Shown one piece after another: positions 1-42,919 of a stretch of 64,000 bases of DNA (the stretch's first letter is position 1; every line of letters starts with the position of its first letter). The DNA comes from an uncultured Candidatus Cenarchaeum sp. GTDB taxonomy: Archaea > Thermoproteota > Nitrososphaeria > Nitrososphaerales > Nitrosopumilaceae. The stretch lies in the NCBI GenBank assembly GCA_958295735.1, contig OY282369.1, positions 976,161 to 1,040,160 of the forward strand, given 5' to 3'. Position numbers and translations under genes: made by a program. The notes under the pieces are model-generated. The model was not told where the DNA came from and did not search any database. It saw only the letters and a program-made list of their open reading frames with translations.

Positions 1-1010
1 GCGTTGGAGGTGGCCATCTTCAGGACGTCCCTCGGGCCGAGGCGCCCCGGCCTGCCGGCCGCCGCCGCCGTCGCCTTCCACAGGTAGTCCATCTCGCGGA
101 ACATGTCCGGCGGGTTGACCATCACGTTGTCGGTCCCCAGGGCCACGGTGCAGCCGGCCGCGGCCATCAGGTCGGCCCTCGGCGTCCCGCCCCCCATCAC
201 CGCGTTGGCCCGCGGGCAGACCACTATGCCGGCCCCGGCGCGCGCCGCCGCGCGCATCTCCGCCGGCGTCGCGTGGGTCATGTGCACCAGCGCGTGGGGC
301 CGCATCAGCAGCGCCCTGGCCGCCTCGCCCGCGCCGGTCGTACGCAGGGAGGCGGCGGCGCTGCGCGCCGTCTCCGCGGCGTGTATGGCGCGCAGGCCCC
401 CCGCCCGGGAGTAGCGCCGCAGGACGGCATCGCTGTTCTCGTTGGCCCCGCTTATTCCCAGCCCGTCGCAGGCCGCCAGGACGGCCCCCAGCTCGGCCTC
501 CCGCCCCGGCGGCAGGGGGCGGCCGGCCCGCACCGCGCGCGCGCCGTGGTAGTGCTCCACGCGGCCCAGCACCACGGCCCGGATGGGCGTCCCCGCGAGG
601 GCCCTCCGCAGCAGGGCTATCCCCGCCAGGCCGCCCTCCCGGAAGTCGGCGAACGTGGTCACCCCCCTGGCCAGCATGGACCTGCACGAGGCGGCCATGA
701 ACGAGGCCAGGTGCCCCCCGCCGGTCCGCCCCAGCACGCGGGACTTGGCCCCGACCACGGGGCGCGTCCTCCGCTCCATCGGGCCGCCCAGCGCCGCGTC
801 CTTGGCCACCGAGTCGCCCACGTGGGTGTGGGCGTTGACCAGCCCCGGCACCAGCAGCAGCCCCTCGCAGTCGGCCGACTCCTCCCCGCGGCGCGGCCGC
901 ACGCCGGGGCCGGCGCGCCCGAACGTGCCGTCCCCCTCCACCCGGACGCCCGCGCGCGGGGCGTACTCGAGGCCCGGCCCCAGCAGCGCCGCGGCGTTGC
1001 GCAGTATCAT
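1..1010 (-). CDS. Amidohydrolase / nucleobase-deaminase family protein (3' end outside window)
   Basis: The gene starts at ATG 1010 and runs off the left edge, so the C-terminus is missing. The translation shows the metal-dependent amidohydrolase plan: an N-terminal beta-sandwich, the first metal motif VNAHTHVGDS, a later HAAET, then HMTHAT and LGTDN, which carry the remaining His and Asp ligands. The closest families are cytosine/guanine deaminases, S-adenosylhomocysteine deaminases and TrzN/AtzA chlorohydrolases. The start overlaps the stop of GTP cyclohydrolase III (ATGA), so it is probably translationally coupled to the ribB-ribH-GTP cyclohydrolase operon. The substrate is unknown; the position makes a deamination step in riboflavin/deazaflavin synthesis a reasonable guess, but a purine or methylthioadenosine deaminase is equally compatible with the motifs. 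Confidence 0.85.
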   Translation of the reverse strand, partial: MILRNAAALLGPGLEYAPRAGVRVEGDGTFGRAGPGVRPRRGEESADCEGLLLVPGLVNAHTHVGDSVAKDAALGGPMERRTRPVVGAKSRVLGRTGGGHLASFMAASCRSMLARGVTTFADFREGGLAGIALLRRALAGTPIRAVVLGRVEHYHGARAVRAGRPLPPGREAELGAVLAACDGLGISGANENSDAVLRRYSRAGGLRAIHAAETARSAAASLRTTGAGEAARALLMRPHALVHMTHATPAEMRAAARAGAGIVVCPRANAVMGGGTPRADLMAAAGCTVALGTDNVMVNPPDMFREMDYLWKATAAAAGRPGRLGPRDVLKMATSN

Positions 1011-25860: not shown

Positions 25861-27171
25861 CTACTGAACAACCATGTTTGCAATCTGTGCAATCTCGTCT
25901 TGATTTAGGTGGCCCTTGCCAATAACCTGCCTTATTTCATCAAATGCGTGTGATTCATCTGTATTCAAATTCATTCCATAGTTGATCAGATCTATCAATT
26001 GTGGTTTTGAATAATATGGTTGACCTTTGTTTATGGATTTCTCTATGTAATGGGAATTGGCAATTAATAATCGTCTTTGATATTTGGGAGCAGCGCTGGT
26101 AGTACGAATCATACCGTTTTGTGAATGTGCGTATCCTTTGTGCTGAGTTGGGGAAAGATTGATCAGATTTTCGAGATAACCTCCAAACTCTGGTTTTTGA
26201 CTACGAAGAATTATGTGATGTATTTCCATTACAGGCGATTGGTGGTTGCCATCCAAAAACATCGGTCTGCGCCCATACAATCTTTTGATGAGGTTTTTTG
26301 CGCTTATCACACGTTTGTGATAATACGCCAAGCGTATATTGGGTGTGGTGATTTCAGCTTCTGATCGAGGTACTTCTTTCATTTTCCACAAATCTTGGAA
26401 ATTGACTCTGTTGTAGAATAATTCATCTGTGCGGATTACATGATTTGCAATCCTTCCTCTCTCAGTGCCTTTCTTTCGATGTTTTGCACATATTACATTC
26501 AGTGCGGGATTGAATATTCTTCTAGCTTCTGTTCTTCCAGGATGGTTTCCTTTTGCATCGCGTTTACCGACTGGCGTGTTATTGTACAACAATTCATAAA
26601 AATCGTCTTTCAAACAGTCTAATGCGTCTGTGGTCTGTCTTTTAAGAAAATCGTCTAACGCTTGTCCAAGTCCACTATCTCTAAAAATTTTCTCATAATA
26701 TTCAGCAAGAAATACACCTGCATGTTGAGGTCTTTGCGATACGTATTCTAACAGTGGCCTATTTTGACAAGTGTATTCCCACCTGTTGCAAATTTTTTCA
26801 CCATTCAACAGTTTGGAATAGGTGAGTAACAAGACAGGTTGCGATATGAATTTGTTGTATTCGGATGCTGCTTTGGGGTCTGAGGGCTTAGGTTTGTTAA
26901 AATAATCATGCGCCTCATTTTTAAAATAATCCATTCCCCAGATATCGCGATTAGTAAATACACGATCCCTATCATCTTTGGTTAATTCTAGTATACATCT
27001 AGCAATGAAATCCACGACATCTGTCTTGGTTTTTTGGTCAAAATATCTAGCAATTCCCGATTGGCGAATATCCAGATCTAGCTCGTTCAAATGTGTGCGT
27101 ATTCGATCAAGCAACGTACACGCAACATGTGTGAGGTATATAAACAAATGCGGCACAATAAGCCACCGCAT
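25861..27171 (-). CDS. HNH-type endonuclease, AT-rich, candidate restriction enzyme
   Basis: Up to 436 residues, clearly AT-rich against a GC-rich chromosome, implying recent transfer. Near residues 310-350 lies an HNH-like motif: MEIHHIILRSQKPEFGG, then NLINLSPTQHKGYAH, giving the His-His, Asn and His ligands of the beta-beta-alpha-metal fold. The rest is helical and charged with no recognised DNA-binding domain. A TATA box (tatataaaca, 27137-27146) lies inside the 5' end and would place a leaderless TTG start at 27114, giving 417 residues. The same-strand, equally AT-rich methyltransferase at 33470-35977 is its likely cognate partner, now separated by insertion sequences. Confidence 0.7.
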   Translation of the reverse strand: MRWLIVPHLFIYLTHVACTLLDRIRTHLNELDLDIRQSGIARYFDQKTKTDVVDFIARCILELTKDDRDRVFTNRDIWGMDYFKNEAHDYFNKPKPSDPKAASEYNKFISQPVLLLTYSKLLNGEKICNRWEYTCQNRPLLEYVSQRPQHAGVFLAEYYEKIFRDSGLGQALDDFLKRQTTDALDCLKDDFYELLYNNTPVGKRDAKGNHPGRTEARRIFNPALNVICAKHRKKGTERGRIANHVIRTDELFYNRVNFQDLWKMKEVPRSEAEITTPNIRLAYYHKRVISAKNLIKRLYGRRPMFLDGNHQSPVMEIHHIILRSQKPEFGGYLENLINLSPTQHKGYAHSQNGMIRTTSAAPKYQRRLLIANSHYIEKSINKGQPYYSKPQLIDLINYGMNLNTDESHAFDEIRQVIGKGHLNQDEIAQIANMVVQ

Positions 27172-27353
27172 AGATATCCCAGACGGCGCCCCCGGCGCTT
27201 ACGATCTTCCACTTTTCCCGATCTATCCCTCGCGGTTGTGCTACTACAGGCCGGATAAGTCAACGTCCATGTGTATGATGTGCTTTCTGCTAACGCTAGG
27301 ACATCCCCCGTAGATGGTCTGCCTCGCTGATCCGCTTGCATGTATAGCACCGT
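27172..27353. other. Gap between HNH gene and TIR element
   Basis: About 180 bases of intermediate GC. An 87-residue minus-strand frame crosses it but has no promoter or recognisable motif and overlaps the HNH start. I see no supported gene; it may be the edge of the transferred segment. Confidence 0.4.
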
Positions 27354-29089
27354 TGTGTTGTATGAAAATTAGGTCACATTAACTTTGGGCGGCCGGCGGG
27401 CGGTTTTTCCAGTCCGTGCCGGCGCGGAGCCGCCGGCGGGCTTCTGATCGGCAAGCAGATAGGATGCGCGGCAAGGCCGCACGGGAAGGGGCGCGCGGCG
27501 TCCGGGACGGCCGCGATCCGGGCCCCCGCCGCTGGCCCGCGCGCCGGCCGCACGGGAAGGGGCGCGCGGCGTCCGGGACGGCCCTGGAGATCAAGGAGGC
27601 CCCGGGGCACGCGCAAAGGCCGCCCGCGGGGCGCGGGCGGACGGGCGAGCAGCCCGCGGTTAGCCGGCAGGGCGCCCCCGCGCAGCCGCGTCGCGCGAAA
27701 TCATGCCGCCTGCTCGCCCGCGTCCTCCCCCATCCGGCGAGTGTTGTTCTTCTTGATCACTCCCGCGGCCTTCCCGGCGGAGAACGCCCCGGGCGGAGTC
27801 TCCAGGCCGGCGACATACGGCGAGTAGCGAAGCGCCCGTTCGTCGTAAAACGCGACAAATTCCGACAGGCTTTCGCGGCGCCCGATCTCCGCCTCCGGGG
27901 TCCTGAAGAACCTCCCCAGCTTGCTGCCGGTCCGCGGGCAGCAAGGGAGGCCGCTTGTCAGATCAATGCCGCCTGCCGGCAGTCCGCTCCCGGACGCGGC
28001 CGGCTACCACGATCCGGGGGGCGCCTTGCCGCCGCCCTTTTTGCGGTCTCCCCGGCCCGCGAAGCGCGGGCCGTCGTCGGGTGGCATCGTCGCGGGCGCG
28101 CCGAACCGCTTCGCGGCCACGCGCGGCGCGGCCACCGCGTCGTCCGGGGCCGCATCCCCGAACATGCCGGCCCCCGCCGTGCATCGGGACGGATCGCCGG
28201 GACGTGCGACCATGCCGCCGTTCACTGACAACTTCGCTCTTCGGGGCCAGACTGCTACCTGAACACCGCCGTTCGCGGCGAAATTTTCGCCGGCCGGCGG
28301 CACGGGCCGTGGCTCCCGAAGCACGAATCCTTCGTCTCGCGCCGGCCCGCGCGCCGCGCGGCGCCGGAGCGCCGCCCCTCAAACCGGACCCGTCTCCCGC
28401 GCCCCGGCTTGGCCGGGGACGGCACCGCCAGCACGCAGTCTCTCGCGATCCCGCGGGCCTTGTCGCAGCTTGCGACGTGATCGACCCCCAGCGCACCGGC
28501 GGCGCGCCAAGCGCCCGTGTGCGCCTTCCCGCGCTGCCGCGCCGCCAGCACGGCATTCCGCCTGCCGATCTGCGCGGGGGCCCCTACCTGTCGGCGAACC
28601 GCGGGCGGCCCGCCCGTCCGCCCGCGACCCGCGGGCGGCCTTTGCGCGTGCCCCGGGGCCCCCTTGATCTCCCCGGACGTCTCGAACGCCGCGCGCTCCT
28701 CCCCGTGCGGCCTTGCTGCGTATTTGATCTACCCGTCTGTCAGGAAGCCGCCCGTCCGCATTGCGGCAGGCACAGCCTAGAAAAACCGCCAGCACGCGCC
28801 TTCCCGCGCTGCCGAGCCGCCGGTTCGGCATGCTTGGTGATCTGCGCGGAGGCCATGCCCGGCCGGCGGATCGTGTGCGGCCCGCCCGTCCGCCAGCACT
28901 CCGCGAGCGGCCTTTGCGCGTGCCCCGGGGTCACTCCGAATTCTTGGGCCGTCCAGGACGACTTGCGCCCCTTCTCGCGCATTCGATCCGCTTGCCGATC
29001 AAGAAGCGGCCATCCGCTTCGGCTGGCAGACTGGCAAAACTGCCCGCTCGTGGCCTGAAGTTAGTGTGACCTAATTTTCATACAACACA
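27354..29089. mobile_element. 1.7-kb element bounded by about 30-bp terminal inverted repeats, no recognised transposase
   Basis: The left end tgtgttgtatgaaaattagg (27354 on, continuing tcacattaact) and the reverse complement of the right end (29059-29089) match over about 30 bases with one mismatch in the core. Similarity continues inward in degraded form: ttctgatcggcaagcagata on the left against ttcttgatcggcaagcggat on the right. The interior is GC-rich with internal direct and inverted repeats and only low-complexity or broken frames. It therefore looks like a non-autonomous or decayed transposon. Target duplication is not clear: the flanks end accgt and begin caatcg. Confidence 0.75.
27477..28970. 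repeat. Direct and inverted repeats inside the TIR element
   Basis: The segment cgcacgggaaggggcgcgcggcgtccgggacggcc occurs at 27478 and again at 27550. A stretch of about 80 bases around 27586-27665 (ggggcacgcgcaaaggccgc and neighbours) is repeated in inverse orientation at about 28590-28680, and a shorter third copy lies at 28906-28960. The inverse copies share a translated core PGHAQRPLAE, so they may be relics of one repeated small gene. Confidence 0.7.
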
Positions 29090-29097
29090 CAATCGAC

Positions 29098-30164
29098 ATG
29101 ATGACCAAGGGCGTGGGCATCTGCAAGTTCTCGGACGTCCCCAACTCCCGGTACGGGGCACGCAGCCTAGTCGGGTGCGCCCCGGAGGCGGCCACGGGCA
29201 AGGACAACATGCCGGAGCCGAAGGGGCCAAGTAGGAAGCGCCGGCGGCGGCCTTCATGGCCGGCGCCGGCATGCCGTCGGGCGAGTGGGCGTGCCTAGTG
29301 ATGCGCTACGTGACTCCGGACATGGCGGTCGCGGCGCTGTCTGCGCAGACCGGCTACGTGGTGGTGGAGATACGACACATCGGAAAGATCGAGAACGAAG
29401 CCGGCGCGGCGATCGACTTCCACGACGTGAGGCGCTACGACAAAAAGCCGGGCCTGGAGCTTGTTCGCGGCGGGGGCAAGAATACCAAGTCCAAGGTGTT
29501 CTACGAGACGTACGGCAGCATACAGTGACTCGCGGGCAGCCAGAGGCTCACCTGGGCGCGCACCCATACGCCGGAGCAAACAACCGCGCCGGGGCCGCGC
29601 GCTCCCTACTCGCCGACTGCCGCGGGTACGGCGTGCGACTGGGAACGGTCATGATGGACCGCGAGTTCTTTTCGCAGTCGGTGGTCTCCCTGCTCCAGGA
29701 ACCAGACGTCAAGTGGATCATGCCGTGCCCGAATACGCCCTACGCAAAGCAGGCCCTCGCTGATTTCGAGGCCGGCAAGCGCGAGCGGGTCTCAGACGCG
29801 GTGATCGCCTCGTCAGAAAGCTTGGTGCCCGCACACGATGGTGGTAGCCGAGAGGAGATCCGAGAGCAAGAAAGACGACAGGCGAAAGGAGCTGCACGAA
29901 AAGCACGTCGCGTTCGCCACCAACGAACCCGGCATCGACGTGGACAAGTACTCCAAGCACTAGGGCATAGAGACGAACTACCGGATGCTAGAATCGATGC
30001 GGGTCAAGACCAAGAGCACCAAGCACGACCCCCGCGTCATGTGCATGGCCATCACCATAGTGCTCTTCAACGCGTGGGTGCTGGTCGGCGCGCTGGCCAT
30101 GCTACCAAGCGATGCGGCCGCGCGGGGCGTGCGATCAGGCCGCACTCGGCGCCGGTTGCCATAG
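29098..30164 (+). pseudogene. Broken DDE transposase, IS4-like
   Basis: Successive frames give fragments of one transposase: VGICKFSDVPNSRYGARSL from 29098; VMRYVTPDMAVAALSAQTGY (29256-29528); then YGVRLGTVMMDREFFSQSVV with the catalytic Asp of MMDREF; and, in another frame, KHVAFATNEPGIDVDKYSKH-stop-GIETNYRMLESMRVKTKS with the YR..IE..YR..K signature, ending RVMCMAITIVLFNAWVL. An in-frame TAG at 29961 replaces the Trp expected before GIE. At least two frameshifts plus this stop mean it is inactive. It begins 9 bases after the TIR element's right end and may be that family's former transposase. Confidence 0.75.
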
Positions 30165-31159
30165 CCGTCCTAGCGCGGTACCCGGACACGGGCCCGGGCC
30201 CGCCGCCCGTCGCGCCATAGCCGGTACGCATCGATCCTCCCGCGCCCCGTCGCGCCGCAGTACTCCCGCGCGCCCTGTCACGCCCGGCGGCGATTGCGCG
30301 CGCCGGAGCCCAAACCGATCAAGGTGCAATAGAGTTAATGCGCTTGGCTCGTTGCGGTGACTGCCCGCCCCGCGCGGCCCGAATGTTGCGCCATTGGAGA
30401 ATAACAACACAATCTGCCGGCCCGGGACGCACGGGCTCGCAGCATCGCAGGATGCCCCGGAATCTGTGCGGTGTGGTGGTTTTGCGCGGCAGGAAACCCG
30501 CGTCAGCGGCGCGGGGCCGCTTCAGCCGATCCTCGCGCCACCCGGCCATCATGGATCCGTACAGGCCGGTGCCGGCGGCTATCTCCTTGAACAGCAGGAC
30601 GAAGTTGCGCATGCCCGCCACTATGTTGAACACGCGGTTGAATTGCTCCGCGGTCCCCCTGAACGGCCTGTGGAGTATCTGGTTGTGCTTCATGTCCGCG
30701 TAGGTGTTCTCTAACCTGTACCTCGTCTTGCTGATCTTTCCGTTCCACTCCTTTTGCGCCGCGGTCAGCTCTTTCTTCCCTGTCCTTTTCGCGGGGTTCA
30801 CGGGGACGGTTCCGGGAAGGCGCTTCTCGGATCCCTGGAACCCCGAGTCCCCGATCAGACTTATCCTCTCCTTCTCGGACATGCCAGGATCCGCCATGCT
30901 CGGGAACACCTCGGCCAGCCCCCCCTGCATCACGGTGTAGTTCCTGCTGCCGGGAAGCGTCTCGCTCACGTGCGGTCACCGTCCTCCGGTTTATGACCGT
31001 CACCGTGTTCGTGCAGTGCGTCTTGTTCTTGCGGGCATGGTGGTCTCTCTGCTTCGCCTCGTCGGAAGGCCGCGCGCGGGGCGCCCGGGTGCCGTCGATC
31101 GTCAGATCGCCGCCTTTCTTGCCGGGCATGAACTTCTTGCGCTCTTCGTCGGTCTTATA

Positions 31160-32487
31160 TAGTAAATGGTGTTGATAGTTGGCACTAATTGGCGCTTGAC
31201 GGAAGAACACACGCACAGCAGACTGACCAGTGGTTGTTTTCCGGCGCAAAAGCCGCATGCGCGCGCCATCGCGCAAACGCGGGGCTGCGAGGACGTCTTT
31301 GCGCGATTCGCGCGCATGCGGGCCCTGCGGCGCCGCGGAAAAGCCGCGGCGAACGGGGAGACAGGCCGGCGGTGCGGCGGGGGGAGGGGCGGCTACGACG
31401 GCAAAAGGTAGTCATGCAGCTTTACGATCCGGATCAGCTTGTTCTTCAGGCCGTCCATCAGGGCATCGCAGGCGTCGTCGATGCTGTCATACATGTTGTT
31501 GGCGAGATAGCGCCGGATGGCCACCCACTGGGTCTCCGTCGGGTTGAGCTCGGGCGTGTATTTCGGAAAGTACACCGCGACCACCTCGTCGCCCGTGATG
31601 CGGCTGACCTCCTCCAGTACCTTCTCGCCGTGGTAGGACGCGTTGTCCATGAACACGATCGGCCTGTCGAACTTTTTGTGGAGGGCCGCCAGGAAATCCG
31701 CCATGTTCTCGGAGTTGGCTGTCTCGTAAGTCTTGAAGAAGCTTTTGCCCCCTGGCCCGATCGCGCCGATTATGGAGATCCTCGATCTGTTGGGGCTTAC
31801 CGGCGCGATGGGCCTTCCGTGCCTTAGTAGCCAGTCCTTGTGGACCCGCCCTTGCTTACCCAGATGCATCTCATCTACGGCGAATGAGTCGCGCCCGGCC
31901 TTTTTGTACCGCGCGGCCAGCCGGGCGGCTTTTTTTTTAAACTCCTCGCGCTCTTTCGGGCCGGCCCTCTTGGGGTTGGCCGGGCGCGGGGCCTTGTACG
32001 AGAATCCCAGCCTGCGGATCAGTTCCCAGACCGAATGCAAGTCGTAGTCCACGCCGAACTCCTTTTTGATGTGCCTTGCGACCAGCGGAACCGTCCACGT
32101 GCCGGCGCCCAGCCCGAACTTCCCGGAGCCCGCCATCATGTTCCTGACCAGCTGCTTTCTTTGTTCCTTGTTGAGCTTGCACGCGGCCCCCTTTCTTTTG
32201 ATGGCGCGCCTGCGGCGGATCCCGCCGCGGGAAATGTTGGAAAGCCAGTAGCCTACCGTGGAGCGGGGCACTTTCAGGATGTCCGCAATCTCGACGTTGG
32301 TTTTTCCTTCCTTCTTGTGTATGCACGCGACCAGTTTTGTCCTCGCTTTCGGATCTTTTTCTTTCTTGAGCGCCTTGCGCAGGTAGTCAGTTTTGGTGTG
32401 CGGAAGGAATTTTTCTCTGCCCACGCGTAACCCCCGTTGTGTCCCTTTATAGACATTTCTACGGCCAGCTATCAACACCATTTACTA
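31160..32487. mobile_element. IS630-family insertion sequence, 1328 bp, apparently intact
   Basis: Termini are tagtaaatggtgttgatag on the left (31160) and its near-perfect inverse ctatcaacaccatttacta on the right (ending 32487). Both ends are flanked by TA (31158-31159 and 32488-32489), the characteristic target of IS630/Tc1-like elements. It carries one full-length transposase on the minus strand and lies inside the IS5-like transposase gene. Confidence 0.88.
31393..32481 (-). CDS. IS630-family transposase
   Basis: A complete 362-residue transposase. The N-terminus has two helix-turn-helix modules (KLVACIHKKEGKTNVEIADIL, VPRSTVGYWLSNISRGG; then TWTVPLVARHIKKEFGVDYDLHSVWELIRRLGFSYK). The DDE catalytic core shows FAVDEMHLGKQGRVH (first Asp), IVFMDNASYHGEKVL (second Asp) and YTPELNPTETQWVAIRRYL (Glu). 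No frameshift or stop is seen, so it may be active. The ATG at 32481 lies inside the right terminal repeat; internal Met/Val codons could be the real start. GC content is lower than the chromosome, in line with recent arrival. Confidence 0.92.
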   Translation of the reverse strand: MVLIAGRRNVYKGTQRGLRVGREKFLPHTKTDYLRKALKKEKDPKARTKLVACIHKKEGKTNVEIADILKVPRSTVGYWLSNISRGGIRRRRAIKRKGAACKLNKEQRKQLVRNMMAGSGKFGLGAGTWTVPLVARHIKKEFGVDYDLHSVWELIRRLGFSYKAPRPANPKRAGPKEREEFKKKAARLAARYKKAGRDSFAVDEMHLGKQGRVHKDWLLRHGRPIAPVSPNRSRISIIGAIGPGGKSFFKTYETANSENMADFLAALHKKFDRPIVFMDNASYHGEKVLEEVSRITGDEVVAVYFPKYTPELNPTETQWVAIRRYLANNMYDSIDDACDALMDGLKNKLIRIVKLHDYLLPS

Positions 32488-33071
32488 TAGCCCGCTGTCT
32501 GCTTGGAGGTGTTCTTGGGCGTGGGCAGCACCTCCCCCACCACCCGCTCGTTCAGCCTCAGGTACCTGCAGACGGAGCTCTGGTCCACCCCGAACAAGCC
32601 GGCCAGCTGGTCCTGCGTCAGGCCGGCCCTGATGCGCACCAGGGAGATGTACATGGCGTGGTCGTACTCCAGCTTGCGCCCGTTGCCCCGGGCCGACGCG
32701 GTGCTCGCGCAGTTCCTGAACAGCGAGGTTCATGCGCATGCGCTCGATCGCCTCGACGTAGTTGGCCAGCACGAGCTCGATCTCCTCCGGCGCCAGCCCG
32801 GTCCAGCACTTCGACTGCACGGGGTCGTTCATGATGCGGTGCAGCATCTCGGCCGAGCGCATGAGCGCGGGATCGCCGCGCTGGAGCCTCTTTTCGGCGT
32901 CGGGCGACCTCCAGAGCGCCCGCTCGCGCTCCAGTTCCGCCTCTGCCCGCTTGGCCCGGTTCGCTAGTATGGCCATCTGCTGCGCTCTCGAGTTCAGCAT
33001 GCCATAGTGTCGCGGCGGGGGGCTTTAACCGGTCGTATGAATTTTTGTCGACAGGATGGTGAATAACACAT

Positions 33072-33212
33072 ACTCCCCAATGGGGGGCGATCAAGCGCGC
33101 GCTCGCCGGCAAGATCTTCAAGACGCTCAACGAGATGGAGTCGTCCGTGCTCGAGATGTTCCGCACGAAAGAACTAAAGCCTGTCAAGCTGTTTGACTAC
33201 CTGACGTGCTAG
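33072..33212 (+). pseudogene. C-terminal fragment of a second IS630-like transposase
   Basis: A plus-strand frame encodes TPQWGAIKRALAGKIFKTLN and continues to LFDYLTC at TAG 33210. This resembles the end of IS630-family transposases, where NPxExxWxxxKRxLA is followed by a helical tail. The upstream part of the gene is missing, replaced by the IS5-like gene end. It is not a copy of the IS630 at 31160-32487, whose tail differs. Confidence 0.5.
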
Positions 33213-33469
33213 TTGCGGCGCCCCGCCTGCCGCCCTTGTTCGCGCGTGCGGTCTTCCGCGCCCCTGTTTGCTGTAGCGGCGCGCAAAGCCGACATCCGCT
33301 GGGCGCGCCGGCCAAGGATTATCAAGCTTTGGATTTATTTACTACGTTCACTACTTGAGCTCGGCCACGCTGTTGTACGGCAGGGGGGTTTTGGACGGTG
33401 TTAAGAAAAGCTGTCCCAGCGCGATCATTGTCTCAATCTAGCCGGTTTTAAGGCGTGATTATGATATGG
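33213..33469. other. Gap downstream of the methyltransferase, no gene seen
   Basis: About 255 bases that change from GC-rich to AT-rich between 33320 and 33470. The AT-rich part probably belongs to the transferred methyltransferase segment. No ORF with a promoter or recognisable motif is present. Confidence 0.45.
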
Positions 33470-35977
33470 CTAACCCGTATTTATTTTGCCGAAGAAAAAT
33501 ATAGAATTACTGTCAATGTTCAGTGAGCGTGTGCTTTTGTTTCTAGCAATCATGTAAAAATTTCTAAATTCCTCCGTGCCAAAGTACTTTAGCGTGTTTT
33601 TGCTCACATTAATTCCGTCTTTAGGAGTTGCGATAGCGACAGAACCGTCACATATTGTATCTTCTGGCATGAAGCATGCGCGTGGGTTGTATGTGAGGTT
33701 TGGGATCAGTATGGATTTTGTGTTGATGAATTTGGCTACGCTTAATTCGTCTAGCTGTTTTTTAGACACAAATGAGTCATAACCCAAAATGTTGATTATC
33801 TTGTTGCTACCTATGTTTCTAGACTTCAAGACTCGGATGTTTCCACGATTTTTGGTTATCTGTTTTGTTATCTGTCTGTCTCTATATGCAGACAGTATTC
33901 CAAACGTCATTTTTTCAGCGATCTTGTCAAAAAAACTATCGCGATAAATTAACCAATATGGAAAACATTTTGGCATCACGTATGATTGTGGGAGTATTCT
34001 GACTTCGCCAGTTATGAAAGACTGGATTGTGGTCTTGTTGGACGGAGATCTATTTGAGCATCCCAATACAAAACCAATTGTCTCAATTTTTATTTTAAAC
34101 GCTTTTTGTCCAAAATCTATTATTTTATTAATATTGTACGACTCCATCAGTTTTCTAGTTTTGTTAAATTCGGGGGCAGACAACAGTGTCTTTGGGACAA
34201 TTAAAGACACATTCTGGGCCATTTCAATTGAGTGTTCTACAAAGAATGAATATTTGTTGTTTGTGTCTTGGTTGTATTTGCCATCTTTGTATTTTTTTAA
34301 CAGAACTGGATTGTTTGTTATCTTGCCGAACGGAGGATTGCCAACTATGATGTCGTATTTTTGTTTTGGAGCAAATGTCAGAAAGTCGGCATTTATGAAA
34401 TTTACTTTTATGTTTGACGGCAGAACTAAGGATTTAACTAAGATTTTGGCAATGTCTAGCGATTTTTTATCAATATCAATGAGATCAAGTTTTACATTCT
34501 TACAGTGCATGTATTTTTGTATGATCGCGGGAATAAATGCCCCAGATCCTACCGATGGTTCAAGAATGGATACGAATTTGTCAGATTCAAACGTTGGCAG
34601 TGAGGCCACCATCGAGAAACACGCATGTTTGCTGGTATAGAATGCGGCGAGTTTGCCTTTGTCAGAGTTTACCGCTTCTGCAATTTTTGATAAGGTGTAA
34701 TAATGCAGATTTTCGGGGTTTTTTTTAATGAATTCTTTGAGATTCCTGTGCACCTTAAGTTTGTGTTTTTTTATAGCGTTTGCTATTTCTGACTCATTCA
34801 GTTTAGTTTGTGTTAGTATGTATCGTATCTTTTTTGCAATGTCTCTAAAAATTGTAGGCGGAACTGACTCACCAATGCTTCTACGTATGTTTAATTCTTC
34901 TTTCTTTAGAAAATTCTCTTTTTGTTCCAGAGGCATTGAATTTAGCTTTTTTACATCAACATCGCTCCATTTAAAATCATCGCTTATCGACATCAATTTC
35001 ATGAGTTCTCTTATTGAAAAAACGCGGTTGTCGTTTGGGTGTATCGTCATCTGACTCGCCATGATGTCATTCCTAGTATGGATGCATGGCATTGGAACAT
35101 CCCAATAACATCTTTTGTACTTGTCGCCATTCTTGTTTTTATTCACAACGCGTTTGCCGTTTTTTATGGTGTGCGGAATGTTCAGAATACTCTTATTATC
35201 AAAAGCTGATTCGCCTTCTTTTATATTGTTTATCCACAGCTTCATTCGTAACGGGTATTTTCTAGCGGAATGGTATATGTCTGATGAATTTACTTCGCCC
35301 CAATCCAATGATGGCATTTTTCCAATGACGTCTCTTAGAGTTCTTTCACTTTTACGATCTGGCATTAGTTCTATCGGCGACACATCGAATAAATCTTTTC
35401 TGCTACCGATCACTATTGTTCTGGTTCTTTGTGATGGATTTCCGTAGTTTTTAAAATTGATAATCTTTGACGATATGTTGTAATCTTGCAAATTTGTTTC
35501 TATCGCAATTCCAATGTCTTTTAGCTGGCCGTCTTTATCTACGCATTTTGTGGTTAAAAACATTCTCACATTCTCAAAAATAAAAATTTTTGGTTTGATT
35601 TTGTTAATCAATGATATAGATTCCACAATCAATGAATTTCTGCCTAATTCGTCGTGTTTGTGGTGATTTGCAACCGACATACCCTGACATGGCGGCGTGC
35701 ATATGACTACGTCAATATTTTTTGATTCCGAACATTCTCTCCATTTTTTGACAGATCTAAATATGGATTCTTTTACGTCCTTATTTTCAATATTGCCCAA
35801 CACATACCCCAAACCGTCTTTGCATTTTTTGTTGAATTTCTGGATTTTTAGTCGTTCTAGAAGTAATTCGTTAGTGACAACACATTCAAATCCGATGTCA
35901 CTAAATGCCTGACAACCCACACCTGCCCCACTGAAAAACGTAATGTAGGACAGTTTCGGCTTGTGTGCGTCATTCAT
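33470..35977 (-). CDS. Fused cytosine-5 and adenine-N6 DNA methyltransferase
   Basis: An 835-residue AT-rich gene joining two DNA methyltransferases. Residues 1-390 are a Dcm-type m5C enzyme: FFSGAGVGCQAF (motif I, 14-25), TPPCQGMS with catalytic Cys97 (motif IV), FENV (motif VI, 134-137), QRTRTIVIG (motif VIII, 183) and GESVPPTIF (motif X, 369). Residues about 440-835 are an N6-adenine enzyme of the Eco57I/TaqI-like class: ILEPSVGSGAFI (473) for AdoMet and VGNPPFGK (545) for catalysis, followed by a long C-terminal region likely to recognise DNA. No nuclease motif is seen. It begins at ATG 35977. It probably protects an asymmetric site, m5C on one strand and m6A on the other, against the AT-rich HNH endonuclease upstream of the island edge. 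Confidence 0.88.
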   Translation of the reverse strand: MNDAHKPKLSYITFFSGAGVGCQAFSDIGFECVVTNELLLERLKIQKFNKKCKDGLGYVLGNIENKDVKESIFRSVKKWRECSESKNIDVVICTPPCQGMSVANHHKHDELGRNSLIVESISLINKIKPKIFIFENVRMFLTTKCVDKDGQLKDIGIAIETNLQDYNISSKIINFKNYGNPSQRTRTIVIGSRKDLFDVSPIELMPDRKSERTLRDVIGKMPSLDWGEVNSSDIYHSARKYPLRMKLWINNIKEGESAFDNKSILNIPHTIKNGKRVVNKNKNGDKYKRCYWDVPMPCIHTRNDIMASQMTIHPNDNRVFSIRELMKLMSISDDFKWSDVDVKKLNSMPLEQKENFLKKEELNIRRSIGESVPPTIFRDIAKKIRYILTQTKLNESEIANAIKKHKLKVHRNLKEFIKKNPENLHYYTLSKIAEAVNSDKGKLAAFYTSKHACFSMVASLPTFESDKFVSILEPSVGSGAFIPAIIQKYMHCKNVKLDLIDIDKKSLDIAKILVKSLVLPSNIKVNFINADFLTFAPKQKYDIIVGNPPFGKITNNPVLLKKYKDGKYNQDTNNKYSFFVEHSIEMAQNVSLIVPKTLLSAPEFNKTRKLMESYNINKIIDFGQKAFKIKIETIGFVLGCSNRSPSNKTTIQSFITGEVRILPQSYVMPKCFPYWLIYRDSFFDKIAEKMTFGILSAYRDRQITKQITKNRGNIRVLKSRNIGSNKIINILGYDSFVSKKQLDELSVAKFINTKSILIPNLTYNPRACFMPEDTICDGSVAIATPKDGINVSKNTLKYFGTEEFRNFYMIARNKSTRSLNIDSNSIFFFGKINTG

Positions 35978-36055
35978 TTTAGATCACGGAGGATTTGGCT
36001 ACAGTGCAGTAGAACAGCAAGTTCGTGACTTTCGTAATTCTGGTGTACGGTACTC

Positions 36056-36683
36056 CTACGAGCGCGGCTCCGCCATGGTGCTTACCATGGTCTTGTTGCA
36101 CGCACTTTTCTTGAGCGGGCCGCTTCCCGCCTCCGACCCATTGTAGCGCTTCTGGTACTGCGCCGTGTCTATGTTGTGACGCACCTCGTACGCCGCGACG
36201 GGCGGTATGTTGTTCACGTGCCTGATCCTGGTGCCGATCGGCGCAACGGGCTACCTGCAACACACTGGAAGCTCGCTTCTCGGACTCACAACATTCAGTA
36301 CGCAACAGGTCGTGCTTTCGCTGCATTTTTTCGTAGTTCTGTCCGTCGCCGCTCCTGCAAGTGGGAGCTCTCTCCCTCTTCTTCCACCAGTCCAGCGAGT
36401 TGTCAAAGGGTGGTGGGTTGGAGTTCTTGTACACCACCTTTCTGGCCGTCGAATCAAAGAGCCCATCATTGGAAACGCATGCGCTAGCAATCTCGCCATG
36501 CATGGAATTCGACCCGTAGTACTTGGAGTTCCACCCCGTTGCGGCGCAAGTAGCCGTATCCATCTCTTTCGCTAGTTCCCTGTTAGTCCTGCGCAGGCCC
36601 ATGCCGTAGGGTCTACAAGCGCATGTAGAACACCCACAGAATGGCGTTTTTTGACACGCGGTTAGGGGTGCCTGGCCCTCCAT
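36056..36683 (-). pseudogene. Frameshifted gene of unknown family
   Basis: A minus-strand frame from 36683 encodes KTPFCGCSTCACRPYGMGLR, ELAKEMDTATCAATGWNSKY and SLDWWKKRERAPTCRSGDG. After a one-base shift near 36250, at the sequence following EKRASSVLQ, the reading continues sensibly as VAPIGTRIRHVNNIPPVAAY and YQKRYNGSEAGSGPLKKSAC to a TAG at 36056. Together these make a roughly 205-residue Cys-rich protein. I do not recognise it; the setting suggests a mobile-element cargo or membrane-fragment gene. Intermediate GC content also suggests foreign origin. Confidence 0.45.
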
Positions 36684-36897: not shown

Positions 36898-39253
36898 GTG
36901 TAGACTTGCGTCCATTGCCTAGCCGCGCCTGATGGGGCGCCACCACGCAGGCGAGCAGTGCACCGGCAGGCGCGGACGGCCGCCAGAGCGGGCCGTTCCC
37001 GCATCGGGGGGCCGGCGGACGAGCAGGCGCGGACGAGCAGGCGCGGACGGCCGCCAGAGCGGGGCTCCGTCCCGCCGGAGGTCCGCCGAGCACGCCGCGG
37101 GTCAACATCGCTTCACCGCCTTGTAGCCATGTTTCAGTAGACACGCTTGAGGATCACCGGTCCGTGACCTCATTCATGCCCGACTCGGAAACGGCGCTGT
37201 TGTGGAGGGAGCTGGTGGCGGTGACCCGGCTCCCGGATGCCCTGAAGTCAAAATACGCGAAAGACGCAGGGGATATGAAACAGGAGATTGCCGGGCGGCG
37301 GGGCGTGATCGATCGCCCGAATGTCGCGGCGGCGCAGCACGCCGGCTGCTGCTGGGACAATGCCGAGATTGCCCGGCTACGGGGCGTGTTCGATTGCCTG
37401 CGGAGCGGGAACGATCGCCCCGGGGCAAGGCCGGCGGCGGCGCGGAGCCGCGCGGCGGGGAATGCAGCGCCAGGCGCGCGAGGCGGGGAATGCAGCGCTG
37501 CCGGGCGCGATGCGGCCAAGCCGGGGCGGGAGCCCGCCGGGGAGAAGGACGCGGGCACGGCGGCCACGGAGCTGAAAGATGCCGGGAAGCGGCTTGCCCT
37601 GTACGACCACCACGACAGGACCGATGCCGTGATGCACAACGCCGATCGGGCCAAGTTCCGCAGGGAGAACGGCGCGCACGGCAGCGGCCGCAAGCCGGGA
37701 AAGATCGGCGCGCCGGCGGGGCACAGAGGGGCGTCGCACCAGCACGAGCCGGAAAGGAGGACCGTCGCCAAGCTCCGCACGTGCGAGTACTGCGGGTCCG
37801 GCAAGCACCAGGAGCCGGCGCGGCTGGCCAACAGGATCGCCCTGATGCTGGCAAGCGACGGCAGCATCGCGCCCGTCGGCATCCGGGCCGAGCGGGCAAA
37901 GTGCATGAAATGCCGCAGGATCTGCGAGGCAAAGTCGGGGGCGATTCCGGGCACGCTGCCGGGGCCGGCCCTGCTCGGGATCGCGGCCGCGTATATCGCG
38001 AATGCCCCGGCGGACGCGGACATCGCCGACCTCGTGGAGCAGCCGCGCGGCCCGAAGATCTCGCCGTCAGCGGTACTGAAGGCCCGCAAGGCCATCGCCC
38101 GCGTCCTGGCGGCGGCGTACGGGCGCATCTTGGAATACGTCGCGGCCCGCGCCACGTTAGTGCAGTTCGACGAGACCCCCGTCAGGATCGCCGGGGCCCG
38201 GGGGTACGTCTGGCTGGCCTGCCGGGAGGATGCGGCGTGCATGGCATGCGTTACCAGCAGGAGCGCGGCCGTGCTGGACGTCCGTTTCCCAGTAACCGCG
38301 ATCCGACTCCGCGAAAAAAGGGTTAAAGCAGGAGCGCGGCCGTGCTGGACGTCCGTTTCCCAGGGCTGGAAGACAAGCCGGCGGCGACCGACCAGTACTC
38401 GGGGCACAACAAAATCAAGGAGAGGCAGGCCTGCCTCGTCCACGTCCTGCGGCATTCCGAGGGCGGCGCGGTCCGCCCCGAGGGCGGGGACGAGAAAGAG
38501 AAGGGGAAGGGGAGGGAGAGGGAGAAGCGGCCGCACGATCGGCTGCGGGGCACGTACGGGACGGTCAAATCCACGGACACCGCGGACGGGGCCATGATCA
38601 AAGAGCTGGAGAGCCGGGTGCTCGACATGGCGGGCGAGTACGGCGAGGGGCACGAGATGCGCACGTCCCCCTCCAACGCGCGGCCCAACATGCTCGCGTC
38701 TCCGAGGCATCCCGACATGCCGTGCCGGAACGACGGGGCGGAGCGGGTCGTACGCGAGGGGCCTGCCAAGGAAAAGAGGTCTCGCCGCCGGCCGAGGAGC
38801 ACGTCCGGCATGCGCTGCCTCGCCGTCATATGCTCCGTGTTCCAGACGGGGAAGCGACGTAGAATCCGGCCGGCGCGCATGCTAGAGGCCGCCGCCGCCG
38901 ACCCGAACTGGAGCGTGTTCGATCCGCCGGCCGCCGGGCCACCGCCCCCGGCAAGGGCGGCGGCAACGGCAGCCGCCCGGCCGACGGCGACGGCTTGCGC
39001 CGCGCCGCCCCGCATCTGTGCCGAGGCGGCGCAAGCGGTACAATCGGCCCGGATGCCGGCACGGCCCCGGGCGGGGTTCGCCATGTCGTCGGATCGCGCC
39101 GAATGATGCGCCGCGGCGGGGGCGCCCCGCCTGCCGGATGCGGCCGGAGCCGGCCGGACGGCCGGCAGGCGCGCGGCCCGCGCAGCAACGGGCCGGCCGC
39201 GCCGGCTCGGGGCTGCTTTCGGGCGCGGCCGGGCAATGGACGTAAGTCTACAC
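36898..39253. mobile_element. IS66-like element with 22-bp terminal inverted repeats
   Basis: gtgtagacttgcgtccattgcc at 36898-36919 is matched by the inverse gggcaatggacgtaagtctacac ending at 39253, with one mismatch. The 2356-base interior carries a disrupted IS66-type transposase on the plus strand. The flanks are an inverted pair of palindromic repeats rather than a clean 8-base duplication. The same terminal sequence bounds the 92-bp MITE at 41871-41962. Confidence 0.8.
37164..39106 (+). pseudogene. IS66-family transposase broken by a 71-bp duplication
   Basis: The first frame (37164 to about 38300) has a coiled N-terminus, zinc-finger-like CEYCG and CMKCRRIC, and the catalytic start VQFDETPVRIAGARGYVWLAC with the first Asp. 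At 38257-38361 a 35-base segment (gcaggagcgcggccgtgctg and following) is repeated 71 bases apart, shifting the frame. The second frame resumes VLDVRFPGLEDKPAATDQYSGHNKIKERQACLVHVLRH with the second Asp, then RTSPSNARPN near the third acidic region, and ends at 39106. With the extra copy removed the two frames join. The product as it stands is probably inactive. Confidence 0.78.
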
Positions 39254-39335
39254 GTGAGCAAGTACGAGGTCAGCAACCCCCACTATTCAGGCGTGAATCT
39301 AGATCAGCGAAAGCGTTTTCACGCCTGTGACTGAC
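39254..39335. repeat. Imperfect palindrome flanking the IS66-like element, right side
   Basis: gtgagcaagtacgaggtcag through tttcacgcctgtgactg, with internal stem aggcgtgaa/ttcacgcct around a gatcagc core. It is the inverse counterpart of 36815-36897 with roughly 80 percent identity by eye. Confidence 0.5.
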
Positions 39336-39350
39336 GGGTACATGACCTCC

Positions 39351-39455
39351 CATATCAAATTCCCACCAGTTACTGCACAGGCCCGTGCGAGTACACGTTT
39401 CTCAGTCAAGCGATGAGCTCAGGCGTTCCATGTGTTTATACTTTCTCTGCGTGAG
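39351..39455 (+). repeat. 105-bp direct repeat, right copy (contains IS110 transposase 3' end)
   Basis: Matches 36681-36785. It overlaps the stop codon and last 17 codons of the IS110-like gene and probably contains that element's right terminus. Confidence 0.7.
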
Positions 39456-40476
39456 GCCCTCGTTCTGCGTCCTGTATTCGGTGCCGTTGGTTAGCATGTG
39501 CCAGATCACCGTGTCCAGCATCCTGGCCACGGCCACCTTGGCCTTCGGCTTGCCGCGGCGCTTGCTTGTCCGCTCGTAGATCCCCTTCAACCTCTCGTCG
39601 TGGCGCACCGCCGTGGTGGCCGCGTTGACTAGGGCGTAGCGCAGCCACGCCGGGCCGGTCCTCGTCATGCCCCCGCCGCGGACGGCATCCCCGCTGTTGC
39701 GGCGCGACGGCACGACTCCCGCGTACGCCGCGAGCTTTTCCGCCGTCTTGAATCTGCGCACGTCCACTATCTCGGAAAGTATCCCGAGCGCGGTCACGTG
39801 GCTGATGCCGGGTATCGCCATGAGCAGCTTGGCCCTGAGATCGTCGCCGCATGTCGCGGCGATCTCGCGCTCGAACGCGTCCCGGTGCTTGGTCGCCGTC
39901 TCGATCATCCCGGTCTGCGCGCCGGGCGCCATCCTGTCGACTTTCGAGACGTCCGCGTTGCGAGCGCCTCCATTCCCTTCTTCCCGAACTTGTCCTTGGT
40001 GGGGGACTTGTAGTCGTACTTTGCCAGCGTGGCCGTGATCTTGTTCTTTTCGCGGGTGGTTGCCCCGGCCATGCCTATCCTGGCCCTCGAGAGGGCGCGC
40101 AGGTTCCTGTGGTGCTTGTCCGGTACGAACGACTTGTACACCATTCCATCCTCAGCAGGTCGGCCAAGATGGACGAGCCTATCTTGTCGTCCTTCAGCTT
40201 CGCCTGCGCTATGGCCTTGATCTTTGCGGGGTGGGCAAGGAGCGTGTCGATGCAGTGATCCTCGAGTATGTCGTGCAGCATCATCCAGTAGTTGCCGGTC
40301 GCCTCGCACACGGCCCTGACGGTCTGCCCCGCGTACTTGCGCTTGATGCGCTTCGCGAAAGATCGTATCGCGTCCGGCGCGTTGTGGAATTCCTCTCGTC
40401 CCAGGAGCTCGGCGGTGTCGCCCTTGACGGCCGCCACGCACAGCTTCTTGTGTACGTCTATGCTTATGTTGATCAT
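39402..40476 (-). pseudogene. IS110-family (DEDD) transposase with two frameshifts
   Basis: The start ATG 40476 gives MINISIDVHKKLCVAAVKGD, the RuvC-like DEDD domain with the first Asp, followed by VRAVCEATGNYWMMLHDIL with Glu and HPAKIKAIAQAKLKDDKIGS with the Asp pair. A frameshift near 40140 is needed to reach YKSFVPDKHHRNLRALSRAR, and another near 39960 to reach the C-terminal Transposase_20 domain: LLMAIPGISHVTALGILSEI, FKTAEKLAAYAGVVPSRRNS and the conserved Ser in SGDAVRGGGM. The order and content are full length for IS110, so the gene was recently intact. Confidence 0.82.
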
Positions 40477-40685
40477 CCTGTCACCCCCTGGCCGATCAAC
40501 TCCGTGGTGTCGGTGCCCGACTGGGCTGGATACTCCCATACGCCGTCAATGCGGCAATTGATTGTCCGCTCACTCTGAACCAGCATCATACACGCCATCG
40601 TACGTGGCAAGGTTAACTCAGTCCTCGGGCCCAACGGCGGGGGGTTGGCGTTCATCACGAATAAGTTTTGATATAACGTCACATA

Positions 40686-41828
40686 ATTGTGGAATCCGAA
40701 AAGTAGTTCACCCCCCCCTCCCTAGCCGACATCGTACTCCTCTCCCGTCTGCCCGTCAATAACCTTTTCCTCGTCCTTCTTGGGCATCTTCCTCGCGAAC
40801 GCCCGCGCCGGCGTCTCCAGGTTGTCCCAGTCGAGGGACATGTGGGGCCGGTCGTGGTTGTACCACCTCATGAACAGATCCACCGGATCGCTCTTCCTCA
40901 TCATGATCGCCTCGAACTCGGGCAGCTTGCGCTGGATCTCCCCGTGCAGCCTCTCCAGCTTGCCGTTCGTCTGGGGGTGCCTCACGCCCGCCAGGATCTG
41001 GCGTATTCCAAGCTCGACCAGCCTCCTCTCGAACTCCGTCCTGCCGCGATTCCTGTCCTCGGACTCGTTGGCGCAGGACTGGGACCCGTGGTCGGTCATG
41101 ATGGAGGCGGGCTTGCCGTGGTCGGCCATGGCCCGTTCCAGCACCGCCAGGGCGTTCTCCGCGGTGGCCCTCTCGAAGACCCCGTACCCCGTGACGAACC
41201 TGGAGGCGTCGTCCTCGTAGCACAGGAACCACCTGCCGTCGTCAAGCATCTTCCAGTCGGTATGCCACAGCGAATTGGAGTGCTCGCGCTCGTACCGCAC
41301 CCATTTGCGCCTTTTGGCCTTTTTGGGGTGAGTTTCTGCCATGTTTTCGTCCCTCAGCACGGCGTGTATCGCGCCGTGCGGGATATTCATTCCGGTCTGA
41401 CTCGCTATGATCCTTTGCAGCGCCACCGCCCCTGTGTGCTCCGCCTGCCGCGCGGACAGCACGGCGGAGTGCTCCCTGCGCCCCGGCATCCCCTGCGGGG
41501 GCCTGCCCATCGGGGCAGGATGCGACATCTGGCCGACCGCGCGGGCCTTGTGCCTGGCCCACATCTTTTGGACCCACCGCACGGACACGCCCATGGATTC
41601 GGCCATCTCCGCGTTGGTGAGCTCCCCCTTCCTCTTCTGGCGTACTATCCACCGTATCTGCGACTCCTCTAGTTTCATGCCGTTCGGGTGATCCAGGCTC
41701 ACGCGTTTTCTCAACCTTTTGCGCCAGACCCACACGCCTTTGTCTCCGCTCAAAGTCAGGCCGATGCGCCTGCTTTTGACCGACTTTACATACGATGACA
41801 AGGGGTGAACTACTTTTTGGACAATATA
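40686..41828. mobile_element. IS481-like insertion sequence with 13-bp target duplication
   Basis: Both ends carry inverted gaactactttt / aaaagtagttcacccc (left 40700-40717, right 41805-41822) within about 27-base imperfect terminal repeats. Immediately outside, ataacgtcacata occurs at 40673-40685 and again at 41829-41841, a perfect 13-base target-site duplication. The single gene is intact, so this looks like a recent insertion. Confidence 0.85.
40722..41801 (-). CDS. IS481-family transposase (integrase core)
   Basis: A complete 359-residue transposase. The N-terminus has helix-turn-helix modules (QIRWIVRQKRKGELTNAEMA, ESMGVSVRWVQKMWARHK). The rve catalytic core shows SLWHTDWKMLDDGRWFLCY with the first Asp, SIMTDHGSQ with the second, and RHPQTNGKLERLHGEIQRKL with the catalytic Glu, followed by MRWYNHDRPHMSLDW. 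No frameshift is present. The start could be ATG 41801 or an internal Met such as that of MKLEESQIRWIV. The element's terminal repeats lie about 25-35 bases beyond each end of the gene. Confidence 0.9.
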   Translation of the reverse strand: MSSYVKSVKSRRIGLTLSGDKGVWVWRKRLRKRVSLDHPNGMKLEESQIRWIVRQKRKGELTNAEMAESMGVSVRWVQKMWARHKARAVGQMSHPAPMGRPPQGMPGRREHSAVLSARQAEHTGAVALQRIIASQTGMNIPHGAIHAVLRDENMAETHPKKAKRRKWVRYEREHSNSLWHTDWKMLDDGRWFLCYEDDASRFVTGYGVFERATAENALAVLERAMADHGKPASIMTDHGSQSCANESEDRNRGRTEFERRLVELGIRQILAGVRHPQTNGKLERLHGEIQRKLPEFEAIMMRKSDPVDLFMRWYNHDRPHMSLDWDNLETPARAFARKMPKKDEEKVIDGQTGEEYDVG

Positions 41829-41870
41829 ATAACGTCACATACACATCTTCTGAAGTCTACGCCTACGCCC

Positions 41871-41962
41871 GTGTAGACTTACGTCCATTGTGATCTAGGC
41901 GTGAGCTCGCGGGGTGACTTGCTGTTGCTAGGCGTGGTTTCAGTTTGGACGTAAGTCTACAC
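41871..41962. mobile_element. 92-bp MITE of the IS66-like family with 8-bp target duplication
   Basis: gtgtagacttacgtccattg at 41871 and its inverse ttggacgtaagtctacac ending at 41962 are the same termini as the IS66-like element at 36898-39253. The element is flanked exactly by ctacgccc at 41863-41870 and again at 41963-41970, an 8-base duplication as made by IS66 transposases. It has no coding capacity. It lies just upstream of the TATA box of the CFI-box gene. Confidence 0.85.
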
Positions 41963-41978
41963 CTACGCCCAAAGCGAT

Positions 41979-41988
41979 GTTTTATTAC
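41979..41988 (+). promoter_or_regulatory. TATA-like element of the CFI-box gene
   Basis: gttttattac about 30 bases before ATG 42014 and 9 bases beyond the MITE's right target duplication, so the MITE now forms the upstream promoter region. Confidence 0.55.
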
Positions 41989-42013
41989 ACGGCGGGGCTT
42001 CCCGGGAGCCGTG

Positions 42014-42919
42014 ATGCAATGCCCGGCGGCCGCGCTGGCGCTCCTGCTTGTCCCGCTCGCCCTGGCCCCCGCCGCGCACGCGGAGATCAACGCCCAGTCA
42101 GGGTCCACCGACCAGGGCACCCTGGGCATAGAATTCTCCACCGTCCCCGACGAGATAGGGGTGGGCGAGGAGGCCAAGATCAGGATAGACTTCGTCAACC
42201 CCGTCAGCCAAAAGATCCAGGAGCACATAGACTACAGGCTCACGGTGTCCAGGGACGGCGAGGCGGTGTTCGGCCCCATAGCCCTCACCCACACGTCCAC
42301 CGGCTCGGTCACCATCCCCGTGGAGTTCGCGGGGGGCGGGATGCACGAGGCGGCCATAGAGGTAGAGGGGATCCTGTTCCAGCCCATCCCGGCCGAGACG
42401 GCCTCGTTCAGCGTGGCCGTGGGCGGCGCGGCGGCGGCAGCGGCGGAGGAGGCCGAGCCGGAAGGCGACGGGGGCGGGTGCCTCATAGCGACCGCCGCCT
42501 ACGGCACGGAGCTGGCCCCGCAGGTGCAGCGGCTGAGGGAGGTGAGGGACGGCGTGGTGATGGGGACGCATTCCGGGGCGGCGTTCATGGCCGCGTTCAA
42601 CCAGGCGTACTATGCCTTCTCGCCCGCGATGGCCGACCTCGAGAGGGGGAGCCCGGAGTTCAGGGAGGCGGTGAGGGTCGCGCTCGCGCCCATGCTGGCG
42701 GCGCTGTCCGTGCTCGCCCACGCCGGGATCGACTCGGAGGGGGAGATGATCGCGTACGGGATCGGCGCGATGTTGATGGCCGCGGCGGCCTACGCGCTGC
42801 CGGCGCTTGCGGCCCTGTGGGTGTGCCGGCGCTGGCGCGGTTTGCCGGGGCGGCGGGCTCGGCGCATGCGGCCGGGGGCTGCGCCTTGCGCCGCAGCGCG
42901 GGCTGCCGGAGCACGCTAG
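42014..42919 (+). CDS. CFI-box surface protein of Nitrososphaerota
   Basis: A 301-residue exported protein. Residues 1-23 are a signal peptide ending AAHA. Residues 30-135 form an extracellular beta-sandwich (GIEFSTVPDEIGVGEEAKIRI, HIDYRLTVSRDGEAVFGPIA). A low-complexity linker leads to GGGCLIATAAYGTELAPQVQ (Cys156), the CFI-box, followed by LREVRDGVVMGTHSGAAFMA and FNQAYYAFSPAMADLERGSP, a block conserved across thaumarchaeal surface proteins, and a C-terminal hydrophobic anchor around residues 255-275. Start ATG 42014 follows a TATA-like element. The very Arg-rich final 25 residues may be cytoplasmic. Function in the family is unknown. Confidence 0.8.
   Translation: MQCPAAALALLLVPLALAPAAHAEINAQSGSTDQGTLGIEFSTVPDEIGVGEEAKIRIDFVNPVSQKIQEHIDYRLTVSRDGEAVFGPIALTHTSTGSVTIPVEFAGGGMHEAAIEVEGILFQPIPAETASFSVAVGGAAAAAAEEAEPEGDGGGCLIATAAYGTELAPQVQRLREVRDGVVMGTHSGAAFMAAFNQAYYAFSPAMADLERGSPEFREAVRVALAPMLAALSVLAHAGIDSEGEMIAYGIGAMLMAAAAYALPALAALWVCRRWRGLPGRRARRMRPGAAPCAAARAAGAR

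Follow-up and report, generated by a model that had tools for sequence, protein, structure and literature searches.

Within the window, by which we mean the whole 64,000-nucleotide stretch of DNA analysed here, a fused DNA methyltransferase gene (M) and an endonuclease gene (R) lie on the same strand in the order M then R, with R about 6.3 kb downstream of M and mobile DNA filling the space between them (Table 1). Both genes are foreign in composition to their surroundings, with a GC content of 36% in M and 39% in R against 67% for the window and 55-75% for the DNA between the two, and with GC3 values of 0.39 and 0.48, respectively, against 0.71-0.91 in the measured long neighbouring and transposase open reading frames (ORFs). 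Full-length M is present as a single copy in its own genome (one 3.17-Mb contig). The same genome encodes an archaeal amoA (PF12942, E 1.7e-118), from which we infer that the host is an ammonia-oxidising archaeon of the Nitrososphaerota.

Table 1. Genes, protein domains and mobile DNA around the fused methyltransferase (nucleotide positions in the window unless residues are given).
Feature	Position	Strand	Basis or remark
R, HNH (beta-beta-alpha-Me) type IIS endonuclease, HpyAV type	25861-27171	-	PADLOC PDLC03488; conserved HNH residues
Mobile DNA separating R from M	27172-33469	.	GC 55-75%; repeats; multi-copy in own genome
GC-rich multi-copy repeat, no recognised gene	27354-29089	.	61-nt inverted ends, 85% complementary; internal inverted copies
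IS5-like transposase remnant, frameshifted	30319-33000	-	Pfam PF13359, E 2.8e-8; translations
Halves of the IS5-like transposase	30319-30969 (DDE_Tnp_4); ~32.5-32.7 kb (helix-turn-helix)	-	
IS630-like element, intact-looking	31158-32489	-	26-bp inverted ends, 96%
IS630-like transposase	31393-32481	-	DDE_3, E 6e-22
M, fused m5C and gamma-class m6A methyltransferase, M.HpyAV type	33470-35977	-	Pfam, PADLOC, alignment, structure/PDB matches
M, m5C domain	residues 8-390		complete
M, gamma-class (M.TaqI-like) m6A domain	residues ~440-832		C-terminal to m5C
IS110-type transposon gene, two ORFs	39402-40539		side of M away from R
rve-type integrase	40722-41801		side of M away from R

M is one frame of 835 codons with an ATG start and zero internal stops. 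The first-pass annotation had described motif sets for both an m5C and an N6-adenine methyltransferase in this single chain, and every one of them is in place, with FSGAG at residue 15, PPCQG at 95 (containing the catalytic Cys97), ENV at 135, QRTR at 183 and GESVPP at 369 in the m5C half, and EPSVGSGAF at 473 and NPPF at 547 in the m6A half. Pfam agrees in recognizing DNA_methylase at residues 11-384 (E 1.8e-37) and Eco57I at 526-626 (E 2.9e-16), and when the profile of the M family was compared with solved structures the N-terminal half led to M.HaeIII and M.HhaI and the C-terminal half to M.TaqI. Both kinds of fold were likewise retrieved from the PDB with an AlphaFold model of full-length M (mean pLDDT 71.5), M.TaqI with an E-value of 1.6e-14 and M.HaeIII with 6.7e-12. 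Motifs and predicted fold thus indicate that both active sites are real and belong to one chain.

The PADLOC model that fits M best, PDLC03277, matches it over its full length (823 model positions, E 8.5e-223), and the two halves best fit PDLC03370 and PDLC03382 (387 and 445 positions, respectively). The lengths of these three models equal those of M.HpyAV, M1.Hin4II and M2.Hin4II, which are 823, 387 and 445 aa (PMC2816704). In M.HpyAV (HP0054) a C5-cytosine and an N6-adenine methyltransferase are truly fused, and the homologous enzymes of Hin4II are the separate M1 and M2 (PMC2816704). It is on the family model, the equal lengths and this published description that M can be assigned to the HpyAV family. 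Fusions of mixed chemistry had been called rare in the first-pass annotation, and they are indeed uncommon; they nevertheless constitute the established HpyAV-type family, which comprises about a dozen restriction-modification (R-M) systems, nearly all of them fused, including ten that were listed alongside HpyAV and all carry the fused chain (PMC2816704), and they are known also from Esp3I/BsmBI.

M had moreover been presented as a rare free-standing enzyme, a view that does not hold, as the window contains an endonuclease gene and the family had already been described. The partner is absent from the immediate neighbours of M (the ORF at 35979-36683 and the ORFs at 32-33 kb); the latter were considered as candidates and turned out to be pieces of transposase. 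R is a full-length ORF of 436 aa, free of stops and frameshifts, and is matched by the PADLOC model of a type II restriction enzyme, PDLC03488 (E 4.1e-69). A search of the host genome with this model returned a single match, G000:C1:1002129-1003268, which corresponds to positions 25969-27108 of the window and hence to R, and the model also matches every tested endonuclease adjoining a relative of M. No well-fitting model for the endonuclease gene accompanying the relatives of M was found in Pfam or NCBIfam. R retains H318-H319, N335, H344 and H349, and its catalytic H319/N335/H344 are spaced identically (16 and 9) to H295/N311/H320 of HpyAV, in which N311A and H320A abolish cleavage and H295A leaves about 1% (PMC2816704). 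The predicted structure of R folds as strand-strand-helix around these residues, as expected of an HNH site; the whole model gave no meaningful match in the PDB with Foldseek, and the sequence profile of R gave no match there either. R is only 27-35% identical to the endonucleases of the relatives and departs from two usually conserved motifs, with DQKTKTDV in place of DQKCTPDV and HHIIL in place of HHIFP, and because of this low identity and these two alterations the enzyme may be weakened or altered in specificity. The segment 27110-27145 holds a TATA-like TTTATATA about 25 bases ahead of a TTG codon at ~27114, and these could be an archaeal promoter and the true start of R, respectively.

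The DNA between the two genes is a mosaic of mobile elements. In silico excision of the IS630-like element together with one TA copy rejoins the frame of the IS5-like transposase, so the former is nested inside the latter. Fragments of the region 27200-29200 have 97 matches in the host genome at 65-94% identity, and the repeat at 27354-29089 may be a large mobile element, now decayed, that became dispersed in this genome. The stretch at 29.1-30.2 kb, judged by eye only, resembles a decayed transposase. On the opposite side of M, a second cluster of transposon genes occupies 37100-42200.

Relatives of M were sought in genomes, plasmids, phages and viral contigs; a single-protein query found no match among the viral contigs, and a query with the alignment then found relatives there. 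Nine relatives have the same fused chain, most of them 44-57% identical to M: an unclassified archaeal metagenome-assembled genome (L024, 57%), a Rickettsia endosymbiont (L025), Treponema (L026), a Psychrobacter plasmid (L032), and phage or viral contigs (L035, L036, L042-L044). Two Acinetobacter plasmids (L033, L034) and a viral contig (L047) have these two domains divided over a pair of genes that overlap or abut. An endonuclease gene of about 400-460 aa accompanies M in all relatives with usable context (12/12), mostly abutting it; the Psychrobacter plasmid and the archaeon L024 also break the rule that R directly follows M. In the maximum-likelihood tree M pairs with L024 (support 100/98) in a group that contains also Rickettsia, a plasmid and a viral contig, and the tree as a whole intermixes bacteria, plasmids, viral contigs and archaea. 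The two split forms cluster together, and fusion versus splitting amounts to one change. The family passes among widely differing hosts. Neither M nor R was found in the listed genome of the same genus, and among the 398 genomes of the phylum that were sampled, one has R.

Several relatives are organized differently. Four viral contigs (L045, L046, L048, L050) encode the m5C half alone, 49-55% identical, the fetched stretches being without the m6A half or the endonuclease, and these proteins may shield phage DNA from HpyAV-type enzymes. In two Treponema loci (L028, L029) the m5C half stops at about 320 aa, unrelated ORFs replace the m6A half and the endonuclease is truncated; they appear to be decaying copies of the system. 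The viral locus L044:3106-6257 has one fused methyltransferase followed by two endonuclease genes of the R family, the second being more diverged.

We consider it very probable that M and R constitute a type IIS R-M system of the HpyAV/Hin4II kind, acquired horizontally and subsequently split by transposons. The arrangement in the relatives suggests that the two genes were formerly adjacent, and the simplest history would be that the pair arrived once by horizontal transfer and that transposons then inserted repeatedly between its two members. In the proposed mechanism, the N-terminal half of M would place m5C on one strand of an asymmetric site and the C-terminal half m6A on the other, and this one protein would thereby protect both strands of the site in the host, most likely CCTTC/GAAGG, while R would cleave at a distance of a few bases from copies of the site that lack the modification. 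Both genes are presumably expressed and active. That an asymmetric site would be marked by a different base on each strand was already expected in the first-pass annotation, and it is a sound expectation for M, having been demonstrated for the homologue M.HpyAV, in which SMRT sequencing located m5C on CCTTC and m6A on its complement, GAAGG (PMC3936762). The strand-specific double mark and the mixed-chemistry fusion are therefore of an already known kind.

The main competing explanation is that M now works as an orphan beside a silent or inactive R, the double mark serving only for passive immunity against incoming HpyAV-like enzymes or for gene regulation. The displacement of R by 6.3 kb of mobile DNA and its sequence divergence would fit such a scenario, as does the precedent of Cenarchaeum symbiosum A, in which 17 of 25 R-M loci are orphan type II methyltransferases (PMC10609329). 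We nevertheless regard it as rather doubtful, given that R is uninterrupted over its full length and has kept its HNH residues, while an unused gene amid transposons would be expected to erode, as happened to the IS5-like transposase nearby; the TATA-like element ahead of its possible TTG start may point in the same direction. It can tentatively be proposed that the two genes, 6 kb apart and yet intact, have promoters of their own and that R has possibly changed in specificity or control. The split M1/M2 versions in three relatives could, for their part, suggest that M is two genes falsely run together because a stop or frameshift was overlooked, the very error that the first-pass annotation had named as its refutation. 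It is extremely improbable in view of 835 stop-free codons in a single-contig genome and, since nine relatives are equally fused, the fusion is no assembly slip.

Concerning the recognition site, the presumed target-recognition regions in the M family (residues 201-300 of the m5C half, 46-59% identity, and 656-832 of the m6A half, 41-59%) reach about the same level of conservation as the catalytic cores and the whole protein (44-57%), which favours a single specificity throughout the family. Such conservation would be unusual if the members recognized different sites, and CCTTC/GAAGG is therefore the leading guess and probably the site of this system. CCTTC/GAAGG is not under-represented in the window, where 89 and 68 occurrences were observed versus 74 and 58 expected. 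Relatives of M.HpyAV outside H. pylori are 42-64% identical to it (PMC2816704). A different asymmetric site has some appeal at the identities to the family seen here, 44-57% for M and 27-35% for R, and a site with a 1-bp difference has been allowed for distant members (PMC2816704). Recognition of such a site is unlikely, considering the conservation of the target-recognition regions and that both halves of M as well as R would need to shift together.

Reading M and R together replaces the picture of a lone enzyme with that of a complete R-M system of known type, and adds an ammonia-oxidising archaeon to the hosts of HpyAV-type systems, whose first descriptions came mainly from bacteria associated with mammals. 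It also leads to the expectation that both bases of CCTTC/GAAGG would be methylated in the host. In transposon-rich genomes, the partners of R-M genes appear worth seeking beyond the adjacent gene.

Several known systems bear comparison with this locus. The MnlI/HphI type, both members of which are HNH type IIS enzymes, was dropped as a reading once the HpyAV family model fitted both M and R. Esp3I/BsmBI is another m5C/m6A fusion of type IIS (PMC3874165) and resembles M in combining m5C and gamma-class m6A in one chain for an asymmetric site; the m6A half comes first there, however, and is followed by a circularly permuted m5C half whose motifs IX-X precede motif I, and the recognition site and fusion lineage are separate. 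M has its m5C half first, with the motifs in canonical order from I to X, and this domain order rules out an Esp3I-type enzyme, which we deem next to impossible. The HpyAV/Hin4II type recognizes CCTTC, carries m5C on the top strand and m6A on the bottom strand, and cleaves 6/5. Its methyltransferase has m5C N-terminal to gamma-class m6A, in about 810-860 aa or as neighbouring genes, and is linked to an HNH endonuclease of about 300-430 aa with catalytic His/Asn/His; in these protein features M and R conform to the type. Direct abutment of M by R is typical of the type without defining it, and is lacking here; two published systems also deviate from this layout (PMC2816704). Hin4II, the isoschizomer from Haemophilus influenzae, has homologous m5C, m6A and HNH endonuclease components as judged by the family model, but its two methyltransferases are encoded by separate genes, unlike the fused M. 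HpyAV of Helicobacter pylori 26695 (M HP0054, R HP0053) is the nearest counterpart, with m5C then gamma-class m6A (823 vs 835 aa) and, downstream on the same strand, an HNH endonuclease (419 vs 436 aa) of the same HNH spacing; the system described here differs from it in its archaeal host and in the mobile DNA that splits two genes which are adjacent in HpyAV.
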